Shown piece by piece: positions 4,598-30,797 of a DNA stretch of 34,929 nucleotides. How positions within the stretch are numbered: the stretch's first letter is position 1; every line of letters begins with the position of its first letter. The stretch spans positions 1-34,929 of the forward strand of contig CAIXKO010000639.1 of NCBI GenBank assembly GCA_903919925.1, written 5' to 3'. Under the pieces are notes generated by a model, which was given only the letters and a program-made list of their open reading frames with translations, ran no database searches and had not been told where the DNA came from. Both the position numbers and the translations under genes were made by a program. This stretch comes from an uncultured Bacteroidota bacterium (GTDB lineage: Bacteria; Bacteroidota; Bacteroidia; Bacteroidales; UBA12481).

Positions 4598-4667
4598 GAT
4601 CGAAGTTGTACCCACCCCTGGATCGAAGTTGTACCCACCCTTGGGATCGAAGTTGTACCCACCCCTT
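4598..4667 (+). repeat. Three tandem copies of a 23-bp unit
   Basis: The copies are 4598-4620, 4621-4643 and 4645-4667, each beginning gatcgaagttgtaccc and ending in a C-rich run. They sit at the outer edge of the left inverted-repeat arm, while the right arm has only one copy of the sequence. The first copy supplies a stop codon (4597-4599) to the shifted reading frame of the truncated upstream gene. Confidence 0.85.
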
Positions 4668-4758
4668 CCCCTCCCTAAAATAGGGAGGGGTGGAGCACCT
4701 GGCAGACTATTGTATTTAATTGTCCTTAAAGCTCTTGCCGGATTTATTTTCTGATTTT

Positions 4759-5021: not shown

Positions 5022-5093
5022 ATTATCAACCAATTTGGCAAGAGCTCCACCCCTCCCTATTTTAGGGAGGGGAAGGGGTGGGTACAACTTCGA

Positions 5094-5436: not shown

Positions 5437-5958
5437 ATGAAAAACTTAATTATAACAGCAGCGGTGGTAGCTTCCTTCTTCGCTTTGTCATTTGGGAGAG
5501 TTAATGCACAAGCAACAGCAACTGGTCATATTTCAGCCGAAGTTATTGAAGCTTTGACAGTTGGTGAATCCTCTTCCATGAATTTCGGCCGTTTCTCCGC
5601 TGGTGATCAGGGTGGCAGTTTAATTATCCCGGTAAAAGGTGCTGCAGTTTCAACCTCAACTGTAACTACCGCCGACAGCAACATCAACCCGGCAACTTTT
5701 TCAGTATCCGGATCAAAAAATGCCACTTTTTCGGTTACCCTTCCACAAGGACCAACTACTCTTACCAGTATCTCCGGTGAAGGCACCATGATGGTAACCG
5801 ACTGGAACGCATCTTCACTCCAGGGTACCGATGCTTACGTACTCACCGGAGGCACCCAAACCGTTTCAGTAGGAGCAACCCTGAAAGTTGGCACCGCAAA
5901 CGAAAATCCTACAGGAATCTATACCGGTTCATACCAGGTAACTTTCGCCTACAACTAG
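5437..5958 (+). CDS. DUF4402 secreted subunit 1 (candidate fibre subunit)
   Basis: 173 residues. A signal peptide with probable cleavage at Ala24/Gln25 (NAQ) is followed by one DUF4402 beta-sandwich domain: SMNFGRFSAGDQGG (about residues 47-60), a central TFSVSGSKNATFSV hairpin, TMMVTDW, and VSVGATLKVG. The C-terminus reads PTGIYTGSYQVTFAYN, with glycine at -14, alternating Y/Y/V/F and a penultimate tyrosine. That is the signature of chaperone-usher pilins, where it forms the strand bound by the chaperone. Family function is not firmly established; assembly into a surface fibre is my inference from this motif and from the nearby chaperone and usher-like genes. A candidate Shine-Dalgarno (aaaggaag) lies 7 bp before the ATG, which is rare in this phylum and may mean high expression. 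Closest relative here is the gene at 7357. Confidence 0.85.
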   Translation: MKNLIITAAVVASFFALSFGRVNAQATATGHISAEVIEALTVGESSSMNFGRFSAGDQGGSLIIPVKGAAVSTSTVTTADSNINPATFSVSGSKNATFSVTLPQGPTTLTSISGEGTMMVTDWNASSLQGTDAYVLTGGTQTVSVGATLKVGTANENPTGIYTGSYQVTFAYN

Positions 5959-5999
5959 GCATCTTAACTCCTCGGCCTTAAATTTCTGATTGATAGGTA

Positions 6000-6020
6000 A
6001 TTCCATATTGTGGAATTTTT
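6000..6020 (+). terminator. Weak candidate terminator after the first DUF4402 gene
   Basis: A 6-bp stem attcca/tggaat with a 5-nt loop is followed by a short T run, about 40 bp after the stop codon. The stem is short and AT-rich, so this is tentative. Confidence 0.3.
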
Positions 6021-6058
6021 GTGTTGTGGGAATAGATGAAGAGGGAGCCAGGCAAGAG

Positions 6059-6428
6059 CATAGCCGTCAACAATAGGAATTCCGGGATCTGAGATGTACC
6101 CACCCCGCCCTCCCTGAAAAAGGGAGGGAGTCTGCATTGGCGAATCCTTAGTACGCAACTAAGCCGGAATGCCATACAAACAGTTTTACATGCAATAGTT
6201 ATCGTGAAGAAGGTTGCTTGGTTGGCATCCTGTTAATAATCTGATCATTGAAAATGATTGCTTCTCTGTTTTGTCTGAATTTCTATTTCCCTCTCTGAAG
6301 CCGGAAGAGAAATTGTGCTTTTGTTTGGTTGCGCTGAGAGGTAGCAACAAAGCAGACTCCCTCCCTGTTTCAGGGAGGGTCGGGGTGGGTACAACTGAGA
6401 TCCCGGAGCCCTCAGGTTGACGGCTATG
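6059..6428. mobile_element. Repeat element related to the DUF559 element but without an endonuclease gene
   Basis: Nested inverted arms bound this 370-bp block. Outermost are catagccgtcaac (6059-6071) and gttgacggctatg (6416-6428), then ccgggatct and its complement, then about 50 bp that pair imperfectly and hold gtacccaccccg and agggagggagtctgc. Each side contains a GC-rich hairpin: ccctccct/agggaggg at 6108-6128 and ccctccctg/cagggaggg at 6359-6379. The same gtaccc and ccctccct modules occur in the element at 4598-5093. The 6137-6350 interior has no recognisable gene. It resembles a non-autonomous (MITE-like) derivative; a degenerate extra end, ttaagttgagggcttt, lies just outside at 6484. 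Confidence 0.6.
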
Positions 6429-6537
6429 AGGGTAGGTCCCGAGGTTGATCGCGCAAAAGGCATCCTGGCAGAGTAAAAAATCTTTAAGTTGAGGGCTTTA
6501 CCTACCCCTCCAAACAACCTATAAATTCCACTTTCCG

Positions 6538-6582
6538 TTCCAAATTTTGCCCCAAATTTCCATAATGTGGAACGATTTGGAA
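6538..6582 (+). promoter_or_regulatory. Nested hairpins upstream of the second DUF4402 gene
   Basis: An outer stem ttccaaat (6538-6545) / atttggaa (6575-6582) encloses an inner stem ttcca/tggaa (6558-6572). It lies 124 bp before the start codon at 6706 and could be a terminator or leader structure. No clear -7 element was found between it and the gene. Confidence 0.3.
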
Positions 6583-6705
6583 TTGTGCCAAACTCCTAAA
6601 AGTCACAATATGAGCAAATTAACGTCTATATGCCAAAGTGGTATACTTCTTGACTGTAATCCATCAGAAACGAATTAAAAAAACAAATAATTAAAATTTT
6701 AAGTC

Positions 6706-7230
6706 ATGAAAACTTCAATTAAACTCTTCGCCCTCGGAATCGTAATCGCCGGATTCGGTATTAATGCAAACGCTCAGCAGTCTGTAACAGGAACCGGAGC
6801 AACCAATGCTACCATTATTACTCCTCTTACAATTGTAAAAGCAACAGATGCTGACATGAATTTCGGAGTTGTTGCTGTTAGTGCAACCACAGCAGGAACG
6901 GTTATTCTCACACCTGCAAGCGCACGCTCAGTTACTGGTGGAGTTACTCTGCCTTCAGTTACCGGAACAGTTGGTGCTGCAGTATTTAATGTAGCAGGTG
7001 ATGGCAATAGAGTATTTACAATTTCTTTGCCTTCCTCTATTACATTAACTGGATCTGTATCTGGGACTATGACTGTCAACACATTCACTAGCACTCCTTC
7101 AGGAACAGGTACACTTTCGACCGGAACAGCCACTGTAAGAGTAGGTGCAACTTTAGTTGTTGGTGCAGCTCAGGCTCCAGGAGAATACACTAATGCTGCC
7201 GACTTAGCTGTAACGATTAATTATAACTAA
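6706..7230 (+). CDS. DUF4402 secreted subunit 2 (candidate fibre subunit)
   Basis: 174 residues with a signal peptide likely cut at Ala23/Gln24 (NANAQ). The mature chain is Thr/Ser/Ala/Gly-rich and has the DUF4402 pattern: DMNFGVVAV, a VFNVAGDGNRVFTISLP hairpin, GTMTVNTF, VRVGATLVVG, then APGEYTNAADLAVTINYN. The end has a penultimate tyrosine with alternating L/V/I/Y, as in chaperone-usher pilins, but the preceding glycine sits at -16 rather than -14. It has no cysteine. It diverges from subunits 1 and 3 and could be the major subunit, a guess based on its strong terminator and simple composition. The leader is AT-rich (aaaaaacaaataattaaaa) without a Shine-Dalgarno, typical of Bacteroidota. 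Confidence 0.85.
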   Translation: MKTSIKLFALGIVIAGFGINANAQQSVTGTGATNATIITPLTIVKATDADMNFGVVAVSATTAGTVILTPASARSVTGGVTLPSVTGTVGAAVFNVAGDGNRVFTISLPSSITLTGSVSGTMTVNTFTSTPSGTGTLSTGTATVRVGATLVVGAAQAPGEYTNAADLAVTINYN

Positions 7231-7248
7231 TTATCCCTCGGGAACATG

Positions 7249-7276
7249 AAAAGTGCTGCTTTAAGGCAGCGCTTTT
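7249..7276 (+). terminator. Rho-independent terminator after DUF4402 subunit 2
   Basis: The stem aaaagtgctgc (7249-7259) / gcagcgctttt (7266-7276) has one G-T pair, a short loop and a following T-rich stretch, 19 bp past the stop codon. It could limit read-through so that subunit 2 is made in excess over downstream genes. Confidence 0.7.
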
Positions 7277-7356
7277 CGTGTTTATAATTGTTTGTAATTC
7301 TTTAAGGTTTTTTATCTCAGCCCATTTTAGTTTTATTAAGAATTGTTGATCAAAAA

Positions 7357-7881
7357 ATGAAAAAGCTTTTCCTGATATTTGTTTCTATCTCTTTTCTTCT
7401 GGGAGTTCAATGCCAACGGGCGTTATCTCAGGAAAGAGTAAGTGCTTATGCTCAGGTATCAGCATCAGTCATTATTCCGATAGCCGCTACGGAAACATCC
7501 CAGTTGAATTTTGGACGTTTTTACCCGGGCACTTCGGGTGGAACTATTTCCATCAGTCCTGATGGTTATGTTATGACTTCCTCTACAGTTGTGGCAGATG
7601 CCAGTCCGAGGAGTCCGGGAAGTTTTTTGGTTTCTGGTCAGGGGGATGCAACTTATGCGATAGATTTTCAGGAAGGTTCAGCCACACTTATAAATTCTGA
7701 ATCCAAAACAATGGAGGTGAGTGACTGGGTTACCATACCTGAAACCAGTGATAGTTGTATGAAACTTGCTGGAGGTAGCCAAACGGTTATGGTAGGGGCA
7801 ACTCTTAAAGTTGGCTCGTTGGACGAAAATCCCAAGGGAATATATACTGGTTCTTACCAAATCACGTTCGCTTATAATTAG
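7357..7881 (+). CDS. DUF4402 secreted subunit 3 (candidate fibre subunit)
   Basis: 174 residues with a signal peptide probably cut after Ser24 (ALSQ). The DUF4402 landmarks are QLNFGRFYPGTSGG, SFLVSGQGDATYAI, TMEVSDW, VMVGATLKVG, and the terminal PKGIYTGSYQITFAYN with glycine at -14 and penultimate tyrosine. It is clearly a paralogue of the protein at 5437; the last 30 residues differ at only a few positions. It lies after the terminator of subunit 2, so it needs its own promoter. TTTG at 7291-7294 followed 18 bp later by TATCTCAG (7313-7320) is a weak candidate. The chaperone gene follows 129 bp downstream. Being next to the chaperone, it may be a minor or adaptor subunit (inference). Confidence 0.83.
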   Translation: MKKLFLIFVSISFLLGVQCQRALSQERVSAYAQVSASVIIPIAATETSQLNFGRFYPGTSGGTISISPDGYVMTSSTVVADASPRSPGSFLVSGQGDATYAIDFQEGSATLINSESKTMEVSDWVTIPETSDSCMKLAGGSQTVMVGATLKVGSLDENPKGIYTGSYQITFAYN

Positions 7882-7949: not shown

Positions 7950-8010
7950 TGTGTGTTTTTTTAAACTGTACAACATGTTTACATCGAAAGCCTTTTGGTC
8001 AGAAAAAGTT

Positions 8011-8856
8011 ATGAAACAAATCGTAACATCTGTTCTTTTGTTTTTTGGGTTGATTCTTTTGCCTGTAATAGCCTCATCAGGTGTCATGGCACAAGGAAAC
8101 CTACTGATCACTCCGCGACGCGTTGTATTTGAAGGGAATAAGAAAACCGAGGAGCTTAATCTTGCTAATACTGGTGCAGATTCGGCAACTTACAATGTTT
8201 CTTTCGTTCAGTACCGGATGAAGGAAGATGGCTCATTTGAAGAGATCAAAGTACCGGACCCTGGCCAGAATTTTGCAGACAAAAATATTCGATTTTTTCC
8301 GAGAACGGTTACTCTGGCACCCAATGAGTCACAGGTTGTGAAAATGCAGGTGTTCCGAACCACTGAACTACCTGCTGGCGAATATCGTTCTCACGTTTAT
8401 TTCAGGGCTTTACCCAAGCAAACTGCTCTTGGGGAAGCTGATGCGCCCAAAGACTCCTCCGCATTATCTGTAAAATTGGTTCCAATATTTGGAATAACCA
8501 TCCCTGTGATTATTCGGACAGGTACTACATCCGCAGAAGTTACTCTTTCAGATCTGTCTTTTCAAGTTCTTAATGATACACTGCCCAGGCTGAATCTGAC
8601 TTTCAACCGGACCGGCAACAAATCGGTTTATGGTGATATTGATGTTAGTCATGTGTCAGTAGCAGGTAAGATAACTCAGGTTGGCTCCATACGTGGGATT
8701 GCAGTTTATACTCCGAACCTGATCCGGCGGGTAAAAATGGATCTTTTGCGGATTCCGGGTGTAGATTTCAAAATCGGAAAGCTTCAAGTGACTTATTCTG
8801 GCGAAGTTGAAGCCAAACAGGTAAAGTATGCAGATACCGAGTTGCTACTCAAGTAG
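8011..8856 (+). CDS. PapD-like periplasmic chaperone
   Basis: 281 residues from the ATG at 8011; the longer start at 7951 would put 20 odd residues before a clean signal peptide (cleavage near Ala27/Gln28, VMAQ). The N-terminal Ig domain (about 29-150) reads like FimC/PapD chaperones: LLITPRRVVFEG with Arg36/Arg37 where PapD has Arg8, RFFPRTVTLAPNESQVVKMQV with Lys111 near PapD Lys112, and PAGEYRSHVYF. The Arg/Lys pair anchors the subunit C-terminus in the known family. The G1 region, LSVKLVPIFGITIPVII, has alternating hydrophobic residues suitable for donor-strand complementation. A second beta domain follows to residue 281. Expected role: fold and cap the DUF4402 subunits in the periplasm before hand-over to the usher-like protein. 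Residue equivalences were made by eye. Confidence 0.82.
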   Translation: MKQIVTSVLLFFGLILLPVIASSGVMAQGNLLITPRRVVFEGNKKTEELNLANTGADSATYNVSFVQYRMKEDGSFEEIKVPDPGQNFADKNIRFFPRTVTLAPNESQVVKMQVFRTTELPAGEYRSHVYFRALPKQTALGEADAPKDSSALSVKLVPIFGITIPVIIRTGTTSAEVTLSDLSFQVLNDTLPRLNLTFNRTGNKSVYGDIDVSHVSVAGKITQVGSIRGIAVYTPNLIRRVKMDLLRIPGVDFKIGKLQVTYSGEVEAKQVKYADTELLLK

Positions 8857-9487: not shown

Positions 9488-12400
9488 ATGTTTTATATTT
9501 CTAAATATGAGTATTATCCGGCACAAGGATCGGCCGAAACTGTGGGAGCTTCCGCATGCAGTATCGGAAATGGCTGTGGAATGGGGTCAAGGGTAAGGTA
9601 TTTTAGCAGGTCAGGAAAATTTCTCCTATTCCTTTTTTTGTCTACATGCCTATTTTTATCAGCAAATAGTTCGTTCGGACAAATTAGCACCTTGAATGGG
9701 TGGACCAATTTGTACCATGGAACCTCTACTGCTGCTCAAAATTTCACCTATACTGTACCTGCCGGGAGCAATTCACGGCGCATTCTGGTGATCGCAATTG
9801 CTTCATCAAGAACTGACGTTGGTGCACGATCAGTAACGCTTACTTATGGTGGACAAACTCTGATACCGGTCAATGGGGATATGGCCCTTGCTACACAGCG
9901 GCACCATACGCAACTTTACTATTTAAATGAGGCGGGGCTGGATGCAGCAACCAATTCTACGCTTGCGGTTACAGTAAGCGGTGCATCCACCCGCGCAACC
10001 GATGTTTTTGCTTCCGTTTACGATAACATTGATCAGAATAATCCGGTTACTGACTCTCGTACATATACCAGTGGAACAAGCAACACCACTAACCCGCTTT
10101 TTTCTCCGGCATTAACCGTAAATGCCAGCGACCTGGCAGTGGAGGTGATCAGTTGTTTTCGCGTTAATAGTACTTCTCTGAGAAACATAACATATGCTGC
10201 CAACTGGAGCATGGTTAATCAGCAAACAACTGCCTCAACAGATGCAGTAAGGAATGCTGTAGCCTACCGAAGTGTACCGGTCACGAATACAACAGATGCT
10301 TCTTCCACAACCTTTAGTGGTAATGCACTCGGATCCATGACGGCTATGAGTCTTAAAGAAGCCCCCAGGTATTTTCTTAGCGCAGCTTCAGGCAACTGGA
10401 ACAGTACTTCAACCTGGCAGGAATCCTATGATAATGCCACCTGGCAGCCAGCAACGGAAGTGCCTACCAACATAAGTTTGCTGACTACTATTCAATCCGG
10501 GCATACGGTAACACTTACCGCAGCTGCTGCAGCTACCGATTTAACGATTGAAGGTGTCCTGGACGTGAGCACCTTTACGTTAACCGGTTCCGGAAACTTA
10601 AACGTTTCCTCAACAGGAGATCTGCTAATAGGAGGAGCCTCTAATTTTCCGGCAGGATTTCCCTCAACCACTTTAAGCTCCGGAAGTACCGTAAACTATG
10701 ACAATGCCGGCAGTCAAAACGTTGCAACTTTCGCCTATAGCAATCTCATCCTTTCCATCAGCGGAGCAAAATCAATATCTACCGGAACTTCCGTTGCCGG
10801 AAATTTGTCCATTAGTGGTGCCACGGCCAGTGTGGGTGCCGGGTTGAATATTGCAGTAGGAAGTCTTACTCTCGGAGGTATAAATCGAATTAACGGAACA
10901 TGGGGATCAACCACTGCAACATCAGCCACCTATCATGATAATACTTATTTTTCTGCAACAACCGGATATTTAACAGTAAGCACGGACACCAGAACTTCAC
11001 CCGATCTGGTTGTTTCAACTGCAAGTCAAAGCATTTGCTCTGGATTTTCAAGCATTACCCTTAGTGGAACAGTAAGTGCAGGCGGACCTCTATATCCAAC
11101 CAATGGGGAAACTGTTGCGGTTACCATTAACGGAATCACACAAAATGCCTCGATTTCAGGAGGTGCCGGCGGGTTTTCCATCAATTATACTACCTCGGCG
11201 ATTCCAGCAAATGGAACTCCTTACACCATTACTTACGCTTATGCCGGCAATACCATTCTAGCAGCGGCAAGCAACACCGGAACAACGTTGACCGTGAATT
11301 CTACTATCGGGAATAATTTTCCTGACTTTGCTTACGGTGCTCATGGAACTATTTGCGGTACAGCCATTGAAAACGGCAATGCCACTTTAACCGCTCCATC
11401 AGGTACCGTGTTTATCAATGTTGGCTTTTCGAGTTACGGCACACCAGGCGGATCTTGCTTGTCGTATACACTGAGCAGTTGCAATTCTTTAACTAGTCAG
11501 TCGGTTACCGAAGGATATTTATTGGGCAACAATACTGCAACCATTCCGGCAACAAATGCTGTTTTTGGAGATCCATGCGTAGGTACACAAAAAAGATTAT
11601 ATGTTCAGGCAACCTATACTGAACCGGTTTGTGCCGGAGTAGCTCCCGGAACCATCACCGGATCATTACCATCGGGAGGCAATGGAGTATACACCTATTT
11701 ATGGGAAAGCAGCACAACCAGTTCCTCAACCGGTTTTTCGGCTGCTGCAGGTACCAATGATTTACAGGATTATACGCCAGGAGTATTATCGCAATCTACC
11801 TGGTATAGAAGAACGGTATATTCCGGAGGATGCGCAAATTCCATATCGCCAGTTATTTTGATTAAGATAACACCAGTCATTGCTGGAAACGCAGTTAGTT
11901 CAGCCCAGACCATTTGTACCGGATCATCCCCGGCTGCTTTATCCGGAACTATACCAACGGGTGGCAGTGGTACATTTGTTTATCTTTGGGAAAGCAGCAC
12001 CACAAGCGCAGCTACCGGTTTTTCTGCAGCTACAGGTACAAACAATACTCAGAATTATTCGCCTGCAGCGTTGACTCAGACCACCTGGTACCGTAGAACA
12101 GTGACCTCGGGAGGCTGTTCCAGCACTTCCACGGCCATTCAGGTAACCGTAAATGTGGCATCGGTTGGCGGAACGGTAGCATCGGCTCAAACAATTTGCT
12201 CAGGCACATCACCAGCTGATCTTACTTTGAGTGGAAACACCGGATCGGTGGTTCGTTGGGAGAAATCCACAAATGCAGCTTTTACCGCTCTAACCATCAT
12301 TGCCGGAACGACTACCACATTGTCCAGCGCGACCATTGGGAGCCTCACGGCAAATACTTATTTCAGGGCAGTGGTTCAGGGCGGAACTTGTGCGGAAGCA

Positions 12401-15400
12401 AATTCGGCTTCTGCTCTGATCACGGTGAAGCCTACCCCAACAGCTACGATAAGCGGCACCGCCACGGTTTGTCAGAATGCGGCTTCCCCAAATATCACGT
12501 TTACGAATCCGCAAACCTTACCGGTTACGGTTACTTATAATATTAATGGTGCAAACCAAACGACCATCAATGTTGGAGCGAGCACCACCGCTAATCTCGC
12601 AGGATTAACTACCACCACAGGAACTTTTGTATACAACTTAGTGAGTGTTGTTTATCAAAGCGCTCCCACCTGTTCAAACAGCATAACAGGATCGGCAACA
12701 GTTACGGTAGCGGCAACGGTGGGAACACCGGTTTTCGCATCAGGAGCCACTTCCACCCGATGCCAGGGTGCCGGAACGCTGACATACACCGCCACCGCAG
12801 CAAACAGCACGAGTGTAACTTACGCGCTGGATGCAACTTCCATTGCAGGAGGCAACAGCATTGTTGCAGGCACCGGAGTGGTGACTTACGCAGCAGGATG
12901 GAGCGGGACCAGTGTGATCACCGCGAGTGCAGCTGGTTGCAATGGACCCACAACGGCCAGCCATACTGTGACTGTTACTCCAACAGTGGGCACACCCTCC
13001 TTTACGTTGGGTGCCACGTCATCGCGTTGTAAGGGAGCAGGAACGGTAACTTACACGGCTACAGCCACCAACAATACCGGCCTGACTTACAGTTTAGATG
13101 CAACTTCAGTAACCGGGGGTAACAGCATTGCAGCCGGCACCGGAGTGGTTACCTATGCAGCAGGCTGGAGCGGCACGAGCACCATTACGGTGAGTGCGGC
13201 AGGATGTGGCGGACCCAAAACCGCTACCCATGCGGTAACGATTAGTCCAACATCGGTTGGTGGAACCTTAGCTTCGGCTCAAACAATCTGCTCAGGTACC
13301 TCACCGTCCGATCTTACCTTGAGTGGAAACACCGGATCGGTAGTCCGTTGGGAAAAAGCCACTGATGTAGCTTTTGCTTCTCCAACCACGATCGCCGGAA
13401 CGACTACCACATTGTCCAGTGCAACCATTGGGACCCTATCGGCAAATACTTATTTCCGGGCAGTGGTTCAGAGCGGAACTTGTGCGGAAGCTGGTTCCTC
13501 CACGGTATTGATCACCGTTCGGCCAACCCCGACAGCCACGATCAGCGGCACCACCACAGTTTGTCAGAATGCTACTTCCCCAAACATTACCTTTACTAAT
13601 CCGCAAACCTTACCGGTCACGGTAACCTATAATATAAATGGTGCCAATCAAACCACCATAAACGTTGGAGCCGGCACCACCGCTACGCTGGCAGCACCCA
13701 CTACCACAGCGGGAACTTTTGTATACAACCTGGTGAGTGTTGTTTATCAAACCGCACCCACCTGTTCAAGCAGCATTACCGGATCGGCAACGGTAACGGT
13801 AACAGCCACGGTGGGCACTCCGGTATTTACTTTAGGGTCAACGTCATCGCGTTGTAAGGGAGCGGGAACGGTGACTTACACGGCCACAGCTGCCAACAAT
13901 ACCAGTCTTACTTACAGTTTAGATGCAACTTCTGTGACCGGCGGTAACAGCATTGTTGCGGGTACCGGAGTGGTTACCTATGCAGCAGGCTGGAGCGGCA
14001 CGAGCACCATTACAGTGAGTGCTGCAGGTTGTGGGGGACCTGTTACTGCCTCCCATACGGTAACCATAAATCCAACATCGGTTGGTGGAGCGATAGCATC
14101 GGCCCAAACGATTTGCTCAGGGAGTTCTCCCGCGGACCTTATTTTAAGCGGAAACACAGGATCAGTAGTTCGTTGGGAGAAATCCACCGATGCAGCTTTT
14201 CCTACTCCAACAACTATCTCCGGAACAACTACCACATTGTCCGGTGCCACCATTGGGAGCCTATCGGCAAATACTTATTTCAGGGCAATTGTTAAAAGCG
14301 GTACTTGTGCTGAAGCTGGTTCGGCAACGGTATTGATCACGGTGAGGCCTACCCCAACGGCTACGATCAGCGGCACTACTGCAGTTTGTCAGAATGCCAC
14401 TTCCCCAAACATCACTTTTACCAATCCGCAAACCTTACCTGTAACGGTTACCTATAATATTAATGGTGCCAATCAAACCACGATCAACGTAGGAGCCAGC
14501 ACCGCCGCTACCCTTGCAGCACCCACTACCACCGCAGGAACTTTTGTATATAACTTATTGAGTGTGGTTTATCAGACCGCACCCACTTGTTCAAGCAGCA
14601 TTACCGGATCGGCAACGGTTTCAGTATCGGCAACAGTTGGTACTCCGGTTTTTGCATCAGGAGCCACCTCCACGCGATGCCAGGGAGCCGGCTCGGTGAC
14701 TTACGCCGCAACAGCATCCGGAAGTACAGGCATTACCTACAGTTTGGATGCCACCTCAATAGCGGGAGGTAACAGCATTGTGGCTGGCACCGGAGTAGTG
14801 ACCTACGTGGCAGGATGGAGCGGGACGAGCATTATTACAGTGAGTGCAGCCGGTTGCAACGGACCCACTACTTCAACTCATACAGTAACCATAACTCCAA
14901 CGGTTGGCACACCGGTATTTACATTGGGATCCACCTCCACCCGTTGTCAGGGTGCCGGAACGGTTACCTACACTGCTACCGCCAACAATAGCACAAGCCT
15001 CAACTATAGTCTGGATGCTTCTTCAACAGCGGGTGGCAACAGCATTGCTTTTAGTACCGGAGTTATTACCTACGTGGCAGGATGGAGCGGCACCAGTATT
15101 ATCACGGTGAGTGCGGCAGGTTGTAACGGACCTAAAACAGCAACCCACACGGTAACTATTACCCCAACAGTGGGCACTCCTGTTTTTTCATCAGGAGCTA
15201 CTTCCACCCGTTGTCAGGGCGCCGGAACGGTAACTTATACTGCCACCGCAACCAACAACTCAGGCCTCATGTATAGTTTAGATGCAACATCCACAACAGG
15301 TGGCAACAGCATTGTTTCAGGCACCGGGGCAGTAACTTTTGTTGCAGGTTGGAGTGGAACCAGTATTATCACCGTTAGTGCTGCAGGTTGCAGTGGGCCC

Positions 15401-18400
15401 AAAACTGCAACCCATACTGTTACAATAAACCCGGCATCAGTTGGAGGGACTTTGGCATCGGCTCAATCAATCTGTGCGGCCACTTCTCCTGCCGATCTTA
15501 CTTTGACTGGGAATACCGGTTCCGTTTTGCATTGGCAGAAATCTTCAGATCTGTCTTTTACCACGCCAACAGACATTCCCGGAACCACAACAACTTTATT
15601 GGGTGCAACCATCGGAAGCCTGGCTGCTAATACTTATTTCAGGGCAGTGGTTCAAAGCGGAGTTTGCCCGGAGGCGTATTCTTCAACAGTATTGATTACC
15701 GTTAAACCAGCTCCAACGGCAACGATCAGCGGAACCACCACGGTTTGTCAGAATACCACCTCGCCAAACATCACGTTTACCAATCCGCAAACCTTACCGG
15801 TTACGGTTACTTATAATATAAATGGTGCCAACCAAACAACTATCAATGTTGGGGCAAGTACTTCAGCAACTCTGGCTATTCCCACCACCACGGCAGGGAC
15901 CTATATCTACAACCTGGTTAGTGTGGCTTATCAAACAGCACCTGCTTGTTCCAATACCATCACCGGATCAGCAACCATCACGGTTTCTGCTACGGTAGGA
16001 ACGCCAACTGTAATAACCATTTCCGCAGGAAGTGAACCCACTTGCCAGCCAACCAATGGAACCACTACAACAACCTATGCTACTACTGCTTCATCCAGTA
16101 CTGGTTTTAACTGGACGTTAAGCAATGGGTCAGCAGGTTCCATAGGAGCAACAACCGGGGTTATGACCTGGGCTTTAGGGTTTTCAGGAAGTGTTAATAT
16201 TCAGGTAACGGCAAATGGTTGTAATGGCCCTTCATCACAGGTAGTCAGAACGGTAACCATAAATCCAACTGTTGGCAGCCCATCAACGCCAACCCCTTCC
16301 GCGACAACAATTTGCCAGGGGAGCTCCAATACCACTTATACTACAACCGCCACTAATGCAACCAGTTACAGCTGGACCGTTTCGGGTACCGGGAATACTA
16401 TTTCCGGTACGGGAACAACGGGTACCGTAACCTGGTCCCCTGCCTTTTCCGGTACAGCAACGGTAAGCGTTACCGCTAACGGATGTAATGGGCCTTCGGC
16501 TGCAGCATCCACCACTGTTACCGTTAGTGCCACATCGGTATCTCCTACACTTGGCTCATCATCTCCGGTAGCGGGAAGTGTTATTTGTTCCGGGTATAAT
16601 TCAGGTTCAGCCACTTTCACAGGCGGATCCGGATCGGGTGCCAATGAATATCAGTATAGTATTGATGGTGGTTTAAACTGGGCCACTTATACCAATAGTG
16701 CAACTATTACCACAACCGGTGGTGTTACCTCGGTTCAGGTAAGAGCCCGTCGCAGCGGAGGAGTCTGTGCGGCAGCTGCTTATAATACTTTTACTATCTG
16801 GACCTATGGTGTTGCACCGGTTTCTCCTACATTAAATTCAGCATCTCCCATTGGCGGAACTACTATTTGTGCCGGCTTTAACACCGGTATTGTCACCGGA
16901 ACCGGAGGCTCAGGGGGATCAACCGGAGCTACCAATGAGTATCAGGTGAGCATCAACGGAGGGAGCACCTACGGTGCGTATACCAGCGGTGCCGCGGTAA
17001 TCACAACCGGGGCAACTGGAAGTATTATTGTGCAGGCACGCAGAAACGGCGGTTCTTATGGTTGTTCAAGTACGGCATGGACCACAATCAATACCTGGAA
17101 TTTAAGTTCAGCAACTGTTAACCCATCATTGAATGTAGCTACACCAGCAAATGGTACTTCATTTTGTGCAGGCTTTAGCCCAAGCGCTACCATTACAGCA
17201 GGTTCAGGCGGATCAACAGGATCTGTGGATACCTATCAATATAGCATCGATAACGGCTCAAACTGGCTGGTATATGTTTCCGGAACTGCCATTGCCACAG
17301 CAGGAGCAACCGGAAATGTACTGATCAGGGCCAGCCGCTCAGCAGGTAGTTACGGATGCAGTGCCACCGGACCTGCCACTATTGTTACCTGGCCGGTATC
17401 ACAAACGCCTGTAGCACCTACATTGGGTTCCGCCGTTCCAGCAGACGGAAGCGTTATTTGTCCTGCATTTAACACCGGCACCGTAACAGGCTCTGCAGGT
17501 TCGGGCGGGTCAGGTACGGCTGCCGATGAGTATCAGGTTAGCATTGACGGTGGCACTACGTTCAGTTCCTATACCAGCGGAGCGAGTATCACTACCACCG
17601 GTGCAACCGGAAGTGTTATTGTTCAGGCACGCCGCACAGGCGGATCCGTTTGTGCCAATACCTCCTGGAGCACTATTTGTACATGGGTGGTTTCCTCGCC
17701 AACAATAATCCCGGCATTAGATGTGGCAACACCGGCAAGCGGCACGGCAATTTGTGCAGGGTTTAGTGTAAGTGCAACTATTACGGCGGGCTCAGGCGGG
17801 TCGGCGGGTGCTGCTGATTTGTATGAATATAGTATTAACAACGGAGTGGCCTGGTTGGCATATACTTCAGGCGCTTCAATAAATACTGCTACCGCAACTG
17901 GTAATGTTCTCATCAGGGTGAGCCGTTCAGCAGGAAGTTATGGCTGCAGTTCAACAGGACCTTCAATCATTGCAACCTGGCCAGTTTCATCAGCCACTGT
18001 TAACCCGGTATTGCTGGCAGCCACTCCGGCAAATGGAATTTCAATCTGCCCGGGTTATTCGGTGAGTGCTACCATAACTCCTGGTTCAGGAGGATCAGCA
18101 GGTGCAGCCGATTATTATGATTACAGCATAGATAACGGAGCATCCTGGTTTGTTTATGTCTCCGGATCTGCCATTAATACCACCACAGCAACCGGGAATG
18201 TTCTGATTCGTACCAGCCGTTCAGCCGGGAGCAGCGGTTGCAGTGCAACCGGACCTGCGGTGATTGTAAACTGGCCTGTCTCCTCTGCCACGGTGTCGCC
18301 AACCTTAGGATCGGCAAATCCAGCTAACGGAAGTGTGATTTGCACAGGCTTTAACACCGGTAGTGTTAACGGAACCGGTGGTACAGGTGGTTCAACCGGA

Positions 18401-21400
18401 GCGGCAAATGAGTATCAGGTCAGTATCAATGGAGGAGGTGCCTTTTCTGCCTACACAAGTGGGGCCGCAATAAACACAGCAGGAGCATCCGGAAGTGTAA
18501 TTGTTCAAGCCCGAAGAACCGGAGGAAGTTACGGATGTACTTCAACCTCCTGGGCAACCATTTGTGCCTGGACGATCGGTACCACTCCGTTGGCGCCTTC
18601 ATTGGGCTCAGCATCACCGGGGAACGGCAGTTCCATTTGCGCCGGATTTAATACCGGAACAGTTACCGGGACCGGTGGATCAGGAGGTTCTTCCGGAGCA
18701 GCAAACGAATATCAGGTCAGCATTGGTGGTGCATACACTGCTTATGTATCAGGCACCGCCATAAACACATTTGGTGCAACCGGGAACGTTATTGTGCAGG
18801 CCCGCAGAACAGGTGGAAGCTACGGGTGTTCCAGCACCGCCTGGGTTACTATTTGCACCTGGTCTGTATCGTCAGCAACTGTTAATCCAATCTTAAATGT
18901 GGCAACACCAGCCAGCGGTTCCACTATTTGCGAGGGATATAGTACATCAGCAACCATAACCGCAGGCTCTGGTGGCTCCATTGGTGCCGCCGATACTTAT
19001 GAATATAGCATCAATAGTGGTGTTACCTGGTTCACTTATACCTCAGGATCATCAATCAATACTACAGGCGCAACCGGAAATGTCATGATACGGGCCAGCC
19101 GGTCCGGTGGCAGCTACGGCTGCAGTGGTTCGGGCCCTGCAACAATTGCTACCTGGCCAGTTGCATCGGCGGCGGTGGCACCCACTTTGGGTTCAGCAAG
19201 TCCGGCAAGCGGAAGCACAATCTGTGCAGGTTCCAATACCGGAACGGTTACCGCAACGGGTGGTTCCGGTGGCTCATCAGGTTCAGCCAATGAGTACCAG
19301 TTCAGCATCAATAACGGGGCATCTTATAATTCATATGTTAATGGTGCTGCAATCAGTACAACCGGTGCTACAGGAAGTGTTATAGTTCAGGCACGACGGA
19401 CGGGTGGCAGCTACGGTTGCAGCTCAACCTCCTGGACAACTCTCTGTACCTGGACCGTTAATCCACAGCCTACCATAACCTTAGGGTCAAATCCAGTGTT
19501 AAACAGAGGAACAACGATAGCCAATCTATTGTATTCCGCCACTACCTCTAGCCCCAATCAGTACAGCATAGATTATAATGCTACGGCAAATACAGCCGGA
19601 TTTATTGATGTGGCCAATGCCGCGCTCACTGCTAGTCCCATTGTTTTGGTTGTTCCGGCAGCACCCGCATTGGCTACCTATAATGCAATCCTTACTGTAA
19701 GAAACTCAACCACCGGCTGCGTCAGCATTAATTACCCGATAACTGTAACAGTTGGTCAGAATATTTTAACTGCCTCCTTGTTGAACTCATCTCAAAAGAG
19801 CGTGAAAGAAACGGGCACCATGGTAGTTACCGTACAGCTATCAGCAGTCAGCGCTAGTCAGGTAACGGTACCATTTACCATAAACGGTGGAAGTACTGCA
19901 ACGGGAGGAGGCACGGACTACGCGGTTACGGCAAGTCCGTTAACCATAGCTGCCGGCAGCACTACTGCAGGCATTGTTATTACGATTACCAGTGAGGCTT
20001 TGGATGAGAACGATGAAACGGTTATCGTAAACCTGGGTACACCCACCAATGCCATTCTGGGGCCGATTATTACTCATACCGCTACCATTACCGATGATGA
20101 TCCTTATCCAACCGGTTCAATTGCAGTGAACCGTGCAGGAATCTCCACTGATGCTACTTCCCTGGTCAATGGAGTGCTGTTGAAAGGATGTGTTACCGCC
20201 AGTAATGTTGTGTTCCGGGGGAACGCAGCCCAGATCGGCCATTTTTTAAAAGGATCGTCTGCATTTCCGCTATCTGAAGGTGTTTTACTTTCTACAGGGA
20301 ATGTAGCTAACGCCGAAGGACCAAACAAGGATTTTGGAACGACCACTCAATATGCGGGTGCAGGTGATGCAAATATTAATACGATTACCGGTGGAACCTC
20401 TTATGATGCTGCCGTTCTTGAATTTGACTTTGTTCCTGCCGGGAACATTCTGCAGTTTAACTATGTTTTTGCATCGGAAGAATATGCTGAGTATGTTGGT
20501 GCTGCATCAAACGACGCATTTGCATTTTTGCTGAGCGGGCCGGGAATTACAGGCACTGTAAATATTGCGTTGATTCCTTCTACTTCAACACCGGTTTCTA
20601 TCAATACTGTTCACGGCCAAGGTAATACACTAGGCACTACTTTCCCTGCTGAATTACTGAATTTAATGCCCTATCCAACTAATTTCGGGCAACCCTGGAC
20701 CCGGGTAACCGATGATGCAATTGGCGCTTTCGGAACAGCTCCTTCCCGTTATTACTACCGGATTACTCCAACCAACAACAATACATATCCTCCGTTAAAC
20801 GCTTCCTATTATGTTGATAACGGACAGTTTTATGATCGGAACCTCTTTGCAACCAGTGGGCGCAAGCAACTTGAATATGTAAACGGGAACGGAGTATCGG
20901 ACATGGAATTTGATGGCAGGACTACCGTACTTACAGCCTCTCATTCTGTTACCGCCTGCCAGACTTACCATATTAAAATGGTGGTAGCTGACGTAAGTGA
21001 CCAAAAATGGGACTCCGGAGTATTTTTGGAAGCTAAGAGTTTTTCTTCTAACGAGATTTTGATCTCTAGTCATATTGGCGCAATCATCGGCGAGGCTGAT
21101 AATATGTTTGAAGGATGCGATGGTAGTTTTATCCGCTTTCAACGCACCACCGGAGCCGATAACAGTCAGCCATTTACTTTCCCGATTTTAATATCCGGTA
21201 CTGCAGTAAACGGGGTAGATTATGTATATACAGACCAGGCCGAAAACATAATCGGTGACGGGAAATTCCCTGCAACCGGTACGGTGGCAGCGGGCTCCAA
21301 TTATGTTGATTATTATTATAAAGCACTGTCAGACGGACTCATTGAGGGTAACGAAACCATTATTTTTAAGGTAAACAACAGCTGCCTCTGTAGCCCAACC

Positions 21401-24400
21401 CCATCTTACCTGGAGAAAATGGTAACTATTGTTGATGTACCACAAATTCAAACCTCCAGTGTATCTGTTATAAAATGTTCAACGAGCGGGTACCCGGTTG
21501 CCACTATTACCGTAAATTTAGACGGAGGATTGGACCCAACAGAATATTTATACAGTTTGGACGGTGGAACTTTCCAAGCCAGTAACCAATTTACCATACC
21601 GAGCGCGGTGGCGGATGGGTCCGATATTTTTGGCACTAGTCATACAGTTACCGTAAAAGACTTTTACTCGTGTAATTCTGTAACTGAAAACAATATCATC
21701 ATTCCTGATATTTCGCCTTTTGCTGCGGAGGCTGGTTCAAATATTGAGATGTGTGCGGGTCAAACCGGAGTTCAGTTAAATGCATCAGGAGGAATTTATT
21801 ATTCGTGGACTTCCGATACTGGCCTTGTGTATCTGTCGAATCCCAGTATTGCAAATCCTGCAGTGAGAAGCGACATCCCGGTTGGCACCTATATTTTCAC
21901 GGTGACTGCTCAGGATCAGGAGGGTTTGGCGCCAACATGCAGCGGGACTGATAATATGACGCTGACCGTAAAACCAAGGCCGGCCCTTACGGTTACTTCA
22001 AATTCTTATTCTGTTTGCAACGGAATGCCCATTCAGTTAACTGCCACAGAAACAAATGGGGTTGCCATCAGTTCCTGGTTCTGGAATCCCGAAACCAATT
22101 TGAGCAGCCCAACAATAAGTAATCCTGTTTATACTCCGGTTGTCAGTTCTTATCTGGCGCAATCGTTTTCAGTAACGGCTACGGCAACAAATGGTTGTAC
22201 AGTAAGTGGTTACTCTGCTGTGGTTGAAGCGTTTCCTGCACCGGTCATTACCACAGGTGCCATTGTGAATGCAGGCTGCGGACTGAGTAATGGATCAGCT
22301 ACTGTATCAGCAACTTCACCCGGGACATTACCACCTCCTACGTTTACCTATTTATGGAATACCTCTCCTGCCAAAACAACTGCCTCGGCTACCGGGCTTG
22401 CGGCTGGAACCTATACCGTTACGGTGACTGATGCAACGCATGGATGTTCGAGCTCGAAATCGGTAACCGTAGGCACTTTAGCGGATGTTACACCGCCCAC
22501 CACAGGGTGCAAAATCCCATTCACCGTTTATTTAGATGGAACAGGTAACGCTGCTATTACCGTTTCCCAAATCAATAATCCTGCTGTTACAGCCGACAAT
22601 TGCACGGCTACCGGAAACCTGGTTATGTCGTTAAGCAAATCCACTTTCAACGCCAGCAACCTGGGCGCCAATACGGTGACACTTTCGGTAATGGATGCCT
22701 CTGGAAATGTTGGAACCTGCACTACTGTTGTAACAGTTGCATATCCAACAACCTGTATCATCACCGGGTCGAGAACTATTTATAAAGAAAGTTTTGATGC
22801 CGGATCGGTTAACGGAGGTTATTCTATTTCTGCCGGTTCAGCCTATAACATAAATAGCTCGGCAATGCGAGTTACCAAAAACACCACAGTCGATAATTTC
22901 TTTATTTCCAGGTTTATTAATGTTTTGAGCTATACCCATTTGAATATTTCGGTTAGTACTCCTGCAACACAAACAGGTTTAAATAGTTCCGATTATATTC
23001 AATTCTGGTATTCTGTGGATGGGGGGGCCAATTATGTACAATTTGCCAATAACGGGCGCATGACTGGAACCACAACCGGGACTGCATGCTCCAATATTCC
23101 AAATGCCGAAAGTGTCCGGATTAAAATATTAAGCTACCAGAACGGTAACTCAGAGTGGCGCGACTTTGATGATGTTCATCTGACCGGAGACCCGGCCTTG
23201 CAGATAGCCGCTACGCTAACGCATGTTACTTGTTATGGCCAATCGAACGGACAAATTGTGGCCAGTGCTACCGGAGGAGCATCCTCATCTTATCAATATA
23301 AGCTAAATGCTGTTCCATATACCGCTTATCAGGTAAGTGGCACTTTTACCGGTTTATCAGCCGGAACCTATATCATAACTTCAAAAGATGCAAATAATGT
23401 TGAAAATACGAAAGAGGTAATTATTACCCAACCTGCCAATCCTGCAAATAGCGCAGGGCTCGCAGTTTCTGATGCTTCAGTTTGCAACCCTTCGGCCGGT
23501 AATGTGGTTTTTACCATCACCAATGCATTGAGCGGGGTTAATTATGAATTAAAAACATTAGCTGACGTTTCCCTTAGCCCTGCTGTTACGGGCACCGGAT
23601 CCGGAACGAATCTGGCTTTAACTATTCTGCAAGCCAATCTTCCAACTTCAACCACCACTTATAAGGTTGTTGCATCCACCGCAAGCGGTTGCCAAACAAC
23701 TGACCTCACCGATCGGCCTACCCTCAACATTACTCCAAAGCCTGCTGGATCCGCCAGTCAGAGTTTTTGCAGCACGAATTCACATAAAATCAGTGATCTC
23801 TCAGTTACTGGCACCGGTATTATCTGGTACAATGCTTCAACCGGGGGATCGGTTCTGGCACCGGCAACCAACCTGGTTAACGGTCTTACCTATTATGCCA
23901 GCCAGACCATCGGAGGTTGTGAGTCGGCTACCCGGCTAGCCGTTACCGCCAGTGTTACTTTGCCTCCAACAATCCTCAGTGTAACTCATGGAGCGATTTG
24001 CGGTTCCGGAACCGTTACTCTGCAGGCTACGGCAAGTGCCGGAGTGATTAATTGGTATTCCGGCCAAACCGGGGGAGCATCTATTGGTACTGGTACCAGT
24101 TTTACTACTCCAAATATCAGTTCAACAACCTCCTATTGGGTTGAATCCACAAACAATGGGTGTGCTACCTCACCACGTTCGCAGGTTATCGCCAATGTTT
24201 ATGCGCTTCCAACTATTTCATTGGGCGCCAATCCAGCGGTTTGCATCGGGGCCGGGTCTGCCGGTTTAACTTATAGCGCTACCACCGGAGGTGCTAATCA
24301 GTACAGTATTAACTTTGACGCCACAGCTGAAGCTGCCGGATTTATCGATTTGGCATTCCGGACTTTGCCTGTGAGCCCAATAGCAGTTGTAGTGCCCGGT

Positions 24401-27400
24401 ACTGCTACTGTGGGGACCTATAAGGCAACCCTGATGGTGAAAAATAGTTTGAATAGTTGTGCCAGTACTCCTGATTCTATCACTTTTACCATTAATCCCA
24501 CTACTGCAATCACCAGCCAGTCAATGGGAGCCCAGGAAACCTGCATCGGACAATCGTTCTCTCCAATCTCAGTATCTGCCGTTGGAGTGGGCTTAACCTA
24601 TCAATGGTATAGTGATGTGAGTGGAAGTACCAGTGGGGGCACCTCTCTGGGATCTGCTAACGGAGCGCAAACAGCTACTTATACTCCACAAGCCACGCAA
24701 GCGGGTACTTTGTTTTATTATTGTACAGTTATCGGAACCTGTGGAAGTGCAATATCTTCTATATCAGGAGCGTTTGTCGTAAATGCAATACCTACAGCAA
24801 CCATCTCGTACCTGGGTTCACCATTCTGTAAGTCGGTTAGTGTACCGCAATCCGTTTCATTAAGCGGTACAGGAGCTTACAGTGGAGGAATATACAGCTC
24901 AACCACCGGATTGACAATTAATCCTTCAAATGGGGAGATTGCTCCGGCAACCAGTATTGCAGGTGTTTATACGGTAACCTACACCATTCCGGCATCAGGC
25001 GGCTGTAGTGAAGAAACAGCAACTACCTCTGTTACTATTACACAAGTTCCGGTAGCGACTTTTAATTATTCACCGGAGCCTTACTGTTCCAATGCGTCCA
25101 ATCCATTGCCGGTATTTACCGGTGGAGGAACAGCCGGGACTTTTTCCTCCGCAACAGGTTTGATTTTTGTGAGCACCTCAACCGGAGAGGTTAATTTATC
25201 GGCAAGTACGCCAGGTACTTACACTGTTATTAATACGATTGCCCCATCGGGTGGCTGCGATGAAGTATCAGCAACAGCTACCATAACCATTACCGCTTTG
25301 CCAACGGCGGCTATCTCCTATATCGGTACTCCTTTCTGCAAATCTTCTGAACCAGTTAGTGTTACCCTGAACGGAACCGCAGGCGGGGTTTACTCATCAA
25401 CGGCCGGATTAACCATTGATTCCGGTACCGGTGCCATTACTCCGGCCTCCAGTACAGGAGGAACATACACGGTAACTTACACCATAGCAGCGGCAGCAGG
25501 CTGCCAATCGGTTACTGCAACCACATCGGTAATTATTACTGCTATTCCGGTTGGCGGATTTAGCTATACCGGAACCCCATATTGCATTAATGGAACAAAC
25601 CCTTCACCAACTTTTGTTCAAGGGGGAGTGGCGGGTACTTTTTCCTCAACAGCCGGGTTGGTGTTTGTTAGTAATTTAACGGGACAAGTAAATTTATCAG
25701 CCAGCACCCCGGGTTCCTATACCGTTACCAATACCATTGCCGGTAATGGCGGTTGTGGAGTAGTTACCGCAACCAGCTCGATTACTATTTCAGCCATACC
25801 AGCTGCAACGATATCCTATTCGGGGGCGCCATTCTGTAAAAATATTCTGATCCCTCAGCAGGTTACCCGAACCGGAACAGCCGGGGGTACTTACTCCGCG
25901 TTGCCGGCAGGGTTAACAATCGATTTAAATACTGGGGCGATTGTTCCCTCTACCAGCACGGCCGGAACCTATACCGTAACTTATACTATGCTGGCAGGAG
26001 GTTGTGCTCCGGTGTTGTCAACCACTTCGGTTACCATTAATAGTGAATTAACTGCTGGCATCAGTGGCGGAACTACCCCGGTATGCTATAACAGTTCACC
26101 CGGAACGCTTACTGCAACCGGATCTGGCGGAACAGGCTCCTACACTTATTTATGGTATAAAGATGGTATCACAACCGGAGTTACCACGCAAACATATTCT
26201 CCGGGTAATTTAATCCAAACTTCCGTATTTTACTGTGCCATAACCAGCGGATCATGCGGAACCGTGAACACCCCTACCTCAACGATCACGGTTACCGAAG
26301 TGCCAACCGGAACAATCAGCTACGCAGGTTCACCTTTCTGCATCGACCTTAGCGCTGAGCAGCCTGTTACTTTATCGGGTACCGGCGCTTATACCGGAGG
26401 AACCTATAGTTCTTCAGCGGGATTATCCATTAATACGGTAACGGGTGCCATAACTCCAAACCTAAGCACAGCGGGCAGCTATACGGTTACTTATATCATA
26501 CCTGCTTCAGGAGGCTGTTCCAACGTACCGGTAACTACCTCGGTAACTATTACCCTGGTTCCATCAGTAACCCTAACCTATGCAGGCTCTCCATTCTGTA
26601 TGTCGGATAATAGCAGCCAGCCGGTTACCCTGACAAATGGTATCGGAGCCTATACCGGAGGAACCTATAGTTCAACCGAGGGCTTGAGCATCAATGCTGC
26701 AACGGGCGAAATTATCCCGGGTTCCAGTATTGCAGGAACCTATACGGTATCTTATAGCATACCTGAATCCGGAGGGTGTGGGGGAGTAGTGGTCACCACC
26801 AGTGTTACCATTACGGCAGTACCCACTGTTGCGATCTCCTATTCCGGTGCGCCTTTCTGTAAGTCGCAGGTTACTCCACAAGCAGTAACTTTAAGCGGAA
26901 CTGGAGCTTATGAAGGGGGAACTTACACTGCCTCCCCGTCGGGATTGTCTATCAATTCAGGTTCCGGTGATATTACGCCTGTTACCAGCACTCCGGGTTC
27001 TTATACGGTGACTTATACCACCCCTGCCTCCGGAGGGTGCAGTGCCGTAGTGGCAACCCTTGAGGTTGCCATAACACCAATACCCACGGCCACTATCAGC
27101 TATAGCGGCACCCCATTCTGTAAATCGGTCAATACTCCTCAAGCGGCAACATTATCCGGGACCGGAGCTTATGAAGGGGGTACTTACACCGCTATGCCGG
27201 CCGGACTAAGCATTAATTCATCAACCGGTGATATAACACCTGGTACCAGTGAACCCGGTACCTATACAGTTACTTACACCATTCCGGCATCAGGAGGCTG
27301 CAGCAGCGTTACCACAACCTCAACGGTAATTATTACTGCGGTGCCAACTGCCAGCATTGTATACGGCGGTTCCCCTTTCTGCAATACTTTAGTTACTCCT

Positions 27401-30250: not shown

Positions 30251-30758
30251 ATCTAAACATCCATTCTTGTTTAGGATGCTTTATTTGTCATTCCTGGTAA
30301 TGTTATTTGCTTTTGTCTTCGATGTATCGGTTCAGGCCCAGCAAAAGCCACCCAAACCGATTACCGTTACCGTAGCCAAAATGTATAATCTGGATTTTGG
30401 ATCTTTTTGTGCAGGTAACGGGATAGGGACCAATGTGATCGTAGATGCTTACGGCAATCGCACAAAAACGGGTAATATCATTCTTTTGGGTAGTTTTTCT
30501 TCCGCTGCGCTTTTCATTATTACTGCAATCCCCGGAACGTTTATCAGTATTTTAGACTTGGGTGATACCATCTTAACAGGTCCGGGTGGAGCAACTCTGA
30601 CTTTACGGATGGGAGATTCCTATCCTCCTTCTCCTTTTATTGCAACCGGAGATTACACCCCTGTTTCGATCGGTGGCCGGCTGATGGTTCCTTCAGCTCA
30701 AGCAACGCCGGGAGGTGTTTATAATGGTGATTTGAATGTGATTTTTATTCAGGAATAA
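30243..30758 (+). CDS. DUF4402 secreted subunit 4 (candidate specialised subunit)
   Basis: 171 residues. The ATG overlaps the last codons of the giant gene by 8 nt, implying translational coupling. The signal peptide is likely cut at Ala32/Gln33 (VQAQ). DUF4402 landmarks: NLDFGSFCAG, ALFIITAIPGTFISI, TLTLRMGD, VSIGGRLMV, then GGVYNGDLNVIFIQE. Glycine is kept at -14 and hydrophobics alternate, but the end is IFIQE: the penultimate tyrosine of the other three subunits is absent. In the mature chain it also has a Cys in NLDFGSFC. Its placement between giant adhesin and usher-like gene, away from the other subunits, suggests a distinct job such as tip, base or link to the giant (inference). The next gene starts 39 bp downstream. 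Confidence 0.8.
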   Translation: MNRSKHPFLFRMLYLSFLVMLFAFVFDVSVQAQQKPPKPITVTVAKMYNLDFGSFCAGNGIGTNVIVDAYGNRTKTGNIILLGSFSSAALFIITAIPGTFISILDLGDTILTGPGGATLTLRMGDSYPPSPFIATGDYTPVSIGGRLMVPSAQATPGGVYNGDLNVIFIQE

Positions 30759-30797
30759 GTAACATCCTTATTGAAAAATCTAGATGGAGATTATTCA

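Follow-up and report, generated by a model that had tools for sequence, protein, structure and literature searches.

An operon of an uncultured Bacteroidota bacterium that very probably encodes a chaperone-usher pilus with DUF4402 pilins

Introduction

The type V (FimA/Mfa1) pili of Porphyromonas are composed of lipoprotein subunits that are matured by protease, and are made without chaperone and usher. Donor-strand complementation is proposed for Mfa4 in the title of PMC4789730. Archaic chaperone-usher systems are given for proteobacteria, Cyanobacteria and Deinococcus-Thermus in the available part of one paper, where Bacteroidota are not among the groups named (PMC4654587); another, also available in part, places such systems in a wide range of phyla (PMC9452303). 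The CupB system of Pseudomonas aeruginosa encodes, according to the accessible part of PMC5022761, a large protein that is not of the chaperone-usher type, CupB5. Among open-licence papers we found none on DUF4402, nor did any title or opening of an abstract deal with chaperone-usher pili of Bacteroidota.

Here we analyse a stretch of 34,929 nucleotides from an uncultured Bacteroidota bacterium (contig CAIXKO010000639.1), referred to throughout as the window. We conclude that it very probably carries a chaperone-usher pilus operon of which DUF4402 is the pilin family.

Organisation of the locus

The operon comprises, in order and all on the forward strand, three DUF4402 genes, a chaperone-like gene, an ORF of 6920 residues, a fourth DUF4402 gene and an ORF of 1202 residues (Table 1). 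Upstream of it, at 1320-3572, lies an ORF that matches alpha-L-rhamnosidase (GH106; E 1.3e-15). Repeats of about 36 bp occupy intergenic positions 4655-4690, 5050-5085, 6096-6128 and 6359-6392 in both orientations, and are also found on another contig of the genome (L067). The pilin 1 region has copies at or near the ends of two further contigs in this assembly (L067:3593-4503, 92% DNA identity; L068:5422-6151, 91%); these are either paralogues or the product of a strain mixture, the assembly having a contamination of 5.36%.

Table 1. Features of the operon, their positions in the window and the evidence for each
Feature	Position	Strand	Evidence
DUF4402 pilin 1	5437..5958	+	173 aa; signal peptide, then donor extension (starting near residue 25) and pilin domain; PF14352 E 9.3e-23, strict motif
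Donor strand predicted at the N-terminus of mature pilin 1, QATATGHISAEVIE	5509..5550	+	alternation across 22 in-register proteins; predicted cleavage before Q
C-terminal strand GIYTGSYQVTFAYN of pilin 1	5914..5955	+	ORF end, motif
DUF4402 pilin 2	6706..7230	+	174 aa, Gly -16; PF14352 E 1.4e-28; loose motif only
DUF4402 pilin 3	7357..7881	+	174 aa; PF14352 E 3.8e-25; AlphaFold2 model of mature form, pLDDT 93.4; pilin fold matches
C-terminal strand GIYTGSYQITFAYN of pilin 3	7837..7878	+	ORF end; strand 145-149 of model
Putative PapD-like periplasmic chaperone	7951..8856	+	PapD_N in family; Pro117 25/25
Giant adhesin, predicted type IX secretion cargo	9488..30250	+	6920 aa; SUEL_Lectin, Calx-beta, Ig_7 domains; TIGR04183 at C-terminus
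T9SS type A sorting domain of giant adhesin	30053..30229	+	TIGR04183 E 1.3e-7, 31.5 bits, cut-off 23
DUF4402 subunit 4, probable tip without donor extension	30243..30758	+	PF14352 E 2.2e-14; short N-terminus in alignment
Mature N-terminus of subunit 4, proline-rich (QQKPPKP)	30339..30359	+	alignment column and Pro counts
Predicted outer-membrane usher	30771..34379	+	1202 aa; model pLDDT 84.0; FimD best fold match, E 2.4e-26
SPOR domain at C-terminus of usher	34158..34340	+	PF05036 E 2.3e-10

The C-terminal strand of the DUF4402 proteins

Pilins 1, 2 and 3 end in GIYTGSYQVTFAYN, GEYTNAADLAVTINYN and GIYTGSYQITFAYN, respectively. The sequence-only reading of this DNA had described the first and third ends as being of the type GIYTGSYQxTFAYN, with glycine at -14, alternating hydrophobic residues and tyrosine at -2, and the second as having its glycine at -16, and had likened them to the C-terminus of FimA-type pilins. 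The ORFs bear this out: hydrophobic residues alternate in pilins 1 and 3, pilin 2 is a variant, and Tyr -2 is present in all three. The same Gly -14 and Tyr -2 are found in all five type 1 pilins of E. coli K-12 (FimA, FimI, FimF, FimG and FimH).

As a strict motif we took Gly at -14, an aromatic residue at -2 and hydrophobic residues at -4, -6 and -8, with a looser form that takes in pilin 2. In 199 DUF4402 proteins from related loci, a set from which duplicates and proteins below 120 or above 260 residues had been dropped, the strict motif occurs 82 times, against once in 727 control ORFs from outside the family; its frequency is 1/313 among control ORFs that have an N-terminal hydrophobic core, and 0.10% among shuffled ends. 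The loose form is found in 122/199 and 12/727, respectively. When the proteins are divided by position, 69 of the 123 encoded away from the usher carry the strict motif, compared with only 13 of the 76 that are usher-adjacent. Subunit 4 of the present operon, which ends in VIFIQE, fits neither form.

Fold and N-terminal extension of the pilins

The AlphaFold2 model of mature pilin 3, built with 107 relatives (pTM 0.83), has no strand in residues 1-18, and its last strand comprises residues 145-149. Every one of the first 27 Foldseek rows for this model is a chaperone-usher subunit (best E 2.1e-3, none below 1e-3), and among the 50 matches listed by VIA 49 are chaperone-usher pilins or pilin domains, the sole exception being 8k2j; the PDB, it should be said, is rich in pilins. 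CsuA/B and CupE appear among the fold matches. The best VIA Z score, 7.6 (rmsd 3.6, 109 residues aligned), is middling on the tool's own scale, and the weight therefore rests on the consistency of the matches and on the operon. An incomplete Ig fold lacking strand G had been expected from the sequence, and the model, which is confident and of pilin type, agrees: pilin 3 is predicted to be an incomplete Ig fold that ends in strand F.

Because 41 of the 50 listed VIA alignments begin at residues 11-18 of the model, the N-terminal extension of pilin 3 appears to be left free. Twenty-two proteins lie in one register, the FG strand being preceded by 25 residues; in these, mean hydropathy is positive at mature positions 2, 4, 6, 8, 10 and 12 and negative at 1, 3, 5, 7, 9 and 11, an unbroken alternation of polar with hydrophobic or small residues over positions 1-12. 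Free in the model and alternating in pattern, the extension resembles a donor strand.

Searches with known pilin profiles gave single weak matches only, SCPU (PF05229; E 0.047) and Fimbrial_CS1 each matching 1 of 43 DUF4402 members; Mfa_like_1 likewise matches 1 of 43 weakly. SCPU had no match in the window's own genome, where a control search gave no signal either. No sequence link was seen between the DUF4402 profile and FimF. Searched against PDB sequences, the DUF4402, chaperone and usher profiles turned up no informative match to a pilin or an usher, and against single E. coli proteins all three gave weak results.

The putative chaperone

The likelier start of the putative chaperone is the ATG at 8011 rather than the GTG at 7951. 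PapD_N matches 16 of 25 members of the family at E <= 0.1 (best 1.2e-6), the window's own chaperone scoring 17.2 bits, below the cut-off of 23. Pro117, kept in all 25, is taken to be the proline that is called invariant for the chaperone superfamily in the available part of PMC4654587. The family profile aligns with FimC over domain 1 (E 0.0017, probability just 16%) and weakly matches CfaA among PDB sequences (E 0.028). The predicted strand G1 is LSVKLVPIFGITIPV.

Arg36/37 and Lys111 had been put forward in the sequence-only reading as contacts for the subunit C-terminus. Both are doubtful as anchors. Arg37 (counting from the ATG at 8011) is arginine in 15 of 16 chaperones from the window's lineage but in none of the 9 from the other lineage; the Lys111 site has a basic residue in 24 of 25, but its aligned counterpart in FimC is the arginine of TLRI and not a strand G1 lysine. 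Better candidates for a family-wide anchor are Arg126, Arg200 and Tyr233 in the same numbering, found in 16/16, 16/16 and 15/16 chaperones of the window's lineage. In ORF numbering, 24 of the 25 chaperones carry an arginine one or three residues past Tyr145, Arg220 is present in 16/16 of the window's lineage and 5/9 of the other, and Tyr253 in 24 of 25. If structural equivalence is assumed, the three candidates recall Arg89, Arg174 and Tyr196, given as the anchor of archaic chaperones in the available part of PMC4654587.

The usher

The 1202-residue protein was modelled from an alignment of 26 sequences (pTM 0.61). The first 18 rows of its fold matches are all FimD or PapC, with TM scores by target of 0.42-0.59, and it is predicted to adopt the outer-membrane usher fold, a barrel with plug and periplasmic domains. 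No Usher profile matched this protein, a PF00577 search of the window's genome was also empty, and PF00577 matches 1 of 26 members of the family (E 0.01). The failure of the standard usher profile to recognise this protein would account for systems of this type going uncounted.

Usher tails were compared in a set of 59, made up of the window's and 58 others of at least 60 residues, drawn from the 73 complete ushers in the 80 loci described below. A tie between usher and peptidoglycan is suggested because 39 of these 59 tails contain a SPOR domain, and it is probably this domain that provides it.

Conservation across Bacteroidota

From 367 confirmed Bacteroidota loci, found by usher alone, the best 80 were retained. 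DUF4402 genes are present in 74 of these 80. Within the flank covered, 29 also have a chaperone, 45 more have none, and 6 loci have neither DUF4402 nor chaperone; many of the loci without a chaperone are truncated by the end of a contig or by a giant ORF. When loci were selected by DUF4402 instead, with a flank of about 1.5 kb, 21 of 29 contained a chaperone or an usher. DUF4402 is present in 47 of 296 Bacteroidota genomes. One cultured carrier is Chitinophaga ginsengisegetis (L120). Many Bacteroidota bacteria seem able to make this pilus, and the operon frequently includes the gene of a giant adhesin exported by another route.

In a second class of loci (L094, L095, L099, L101, L103-L106, L112, L133 and L161) the usher is preceded by one short DUF4402 gene, with a mature start QV[VT]VTGH, and the flank holds no chaperone. 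DUF4402 proteins of 306-339 residues, seemingly without a donor extension, precede the chaperone at L073:1677-2696 and L074:9720-10640; they may be two-domain tip adhesins from a different lineage.

Subunit 4 and the giant adhesin

Subunit 4 has 19 residues before its first conserved strand, compared with 25-29 in pilins 1-3. Filters for maturation and 85% identity left 172 of the 199 DUF4402 proteins, and 108 of these entered the folded alignment, in which the median number of residues before the FG strand is 19 for usher-adjacent proteins (29 rows) and 26 for the others (79 rows; Mann-Whitney p 1.3e-10), with the proline-rich tips L129 and L132 counted among the others and L060, L099 and L104, which belong to other classes, counted as usher-adjacent. 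The shortest usher-adjacent N-termini have 10-11 residues, and the residual N-terminus of this group starts approximately where the pilin-domain alignments start. A measure of N-terminal length taken from the hydrophobic core gave p 0.0497 only, was misled by false FG matches and was replaced by the alignment column. We place subunit 4 at the tip, as its sequence makes probable, because it would accept a strand but could not donate one.

TIGR04183 is found in all 47 tails of the ORFs of at least 300 residues that lie directly upstream of a usher-adjacent DUF4402 gene, the window's included; the Pfam model of the sorting domain matches 35 of the 47, the window's giant ORF not among them. SprA is encoded in the window's genome, split into two pieces that lie on separate contigs. 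The giant protein is accordingly named here as predicted T9SS type A cargo. All 47 tips with a giant T9SS neighbour have at least 3 prolines in the first 14 mature residues, and of the 12 tips with a chaperone directly upstream and no giant gene, one (L141) has two.

Proposed assembly and alternative interpretations

The pilin-like fold, the free and alternating N-terminal extension, the pilin-type C-terminal strand, the putative PapD-like chaperone gene and the usher fold, each read from sequence or model, are the features on which our interpretation is built. By analogy with the established pathway, each exported DUF4402 subunit would have its open groove filled by a strand of the chaperone, presumably G1, and its C-terminus bound by the chaperone; the N-terminal extension of the incoming subunit would then displace the chaperone strand at the usher, and pilins 1-3 would polymerise. 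Subunit 4, without an extension, would enter first, at the tip, and the SPOR domain would probably hold the usher to peptidoglycan. The earlier suggestion that DUF4402 proteins are donor-strand-exchange subunits is in this way supported by the pilin 3 fold, the motif enrichment, the chaperone gene and the usher fold.

It is very improbable, in our judgement, that DUF4402 is instead an ordinary secreted beta-sandwich with a generic amphipathic C-terminal strand, lying beside an unrelated export system. Such a protein could give middling fold-match scores and a weak sequence link to pilins, but the strict motif is present in just 1 of 727 control ORFs, almost all the fold matches are pilins (49/50), and a usher fold is adjacent in a co-location that is conserved (74/80; 21/29). 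Within a chaperone-usher pilus, subunit 4 might resemble PapH or FimI and act as base or terminator, a role suggested by its odd C-terminus (FIQE, in a usher-adjacent class where just 13/76 have the strict motif) and by a gene that adjoins the usher gene. A terminator would nevertheless have to provide a donor strand for the final rod subunit, yet the donor extension is absent from the usher-adjacent class; we consider this role unlikely and retain subunit 4 as the probable tip.

The proline-rich arm of this donor-less tip could, more tentatively, capture the giant T9SS adhesin, giving a hybrid organelle in which two export routes meet at one fibre. We give an even chance to the view that the proline-rich N-terminus and the giant gene are co-inherited by descent, the two proteins making no contact. 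On a usher tree of 56 of the 76 usher-adjacent rows (left out were the contig-edge L011, L107, L127, L149 and L152, the VTGH class and L060, L063 and L065; L110, which has a giant neighbour and PTPRP, fell out unintentionally through the class filter), the two characters change together 5 times. Only 2 of these joint changes are forced by well-supported branches, and the paired test (p 0.5) cannot reach significance, which speaks for descent. Against it, none of the 56 rows is discordant under the tree criterion, PP[RKP], which was widened after the rows had been viewed to admit PTPRP and LPGDP; under the first criterion, at least 2 prolines in 14 residues, L141 is discordant (1/12). Docking of the adhesin on the tip is offered as a proposal because only 2 joint changes are forced and shared descent is as likely as not.

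Comparison with known systems

The interpretation of the locus as a chaperone-usher pilus operon offers a function for DUF4402, a Pfam family of unknown function, and places such a system in a phylum that the available part of PMC4654587 does not list. The conserved pairing with T9SS cargo makes the cooperation of two secretion routes a directly testable question.

Like the FimA/Mfa1 (type V) pili of Porphyromonas, the predicted structures are fimbriae of Bacteroidota. With the type 1 (Fim) pili of E. coli the locus shares the operon logic of pilins, chaperone and usher, the Gly -14/Tyr -2 signature and FimD as best usher fold match; it differs in that the putative tip is a single domain without a lectin domain and that the operon carries the gene of an unrelated giant adhesin. 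CupB provides a precedent for a large foreign adhesin in such an operon, although CupB5 is related to two-partner secretion substrates (PMC5022761, available part), whereas the adhesin here is predicted T9SS type A cargo. The archaic (sigma) pili, such as Csu of Acinetobacter and CupE of Pseudomonas, have in common with it single-domain pilins with an alternating N-terminal donor strand, predicted here, and, as proposed from sequence, chaperones with the proline of the superfamily, an arginine that is conserved within the GEYR segment, and both an arginine and a tyrosine in domain 2. In contrast to the archaic pili, the pilins of this operon are DUF4402 and not SCPU proteins, there is no two-domain tip adhesin in the window, and the usher is SPOR-tailed and of a kind that PF00577 does not recognise.
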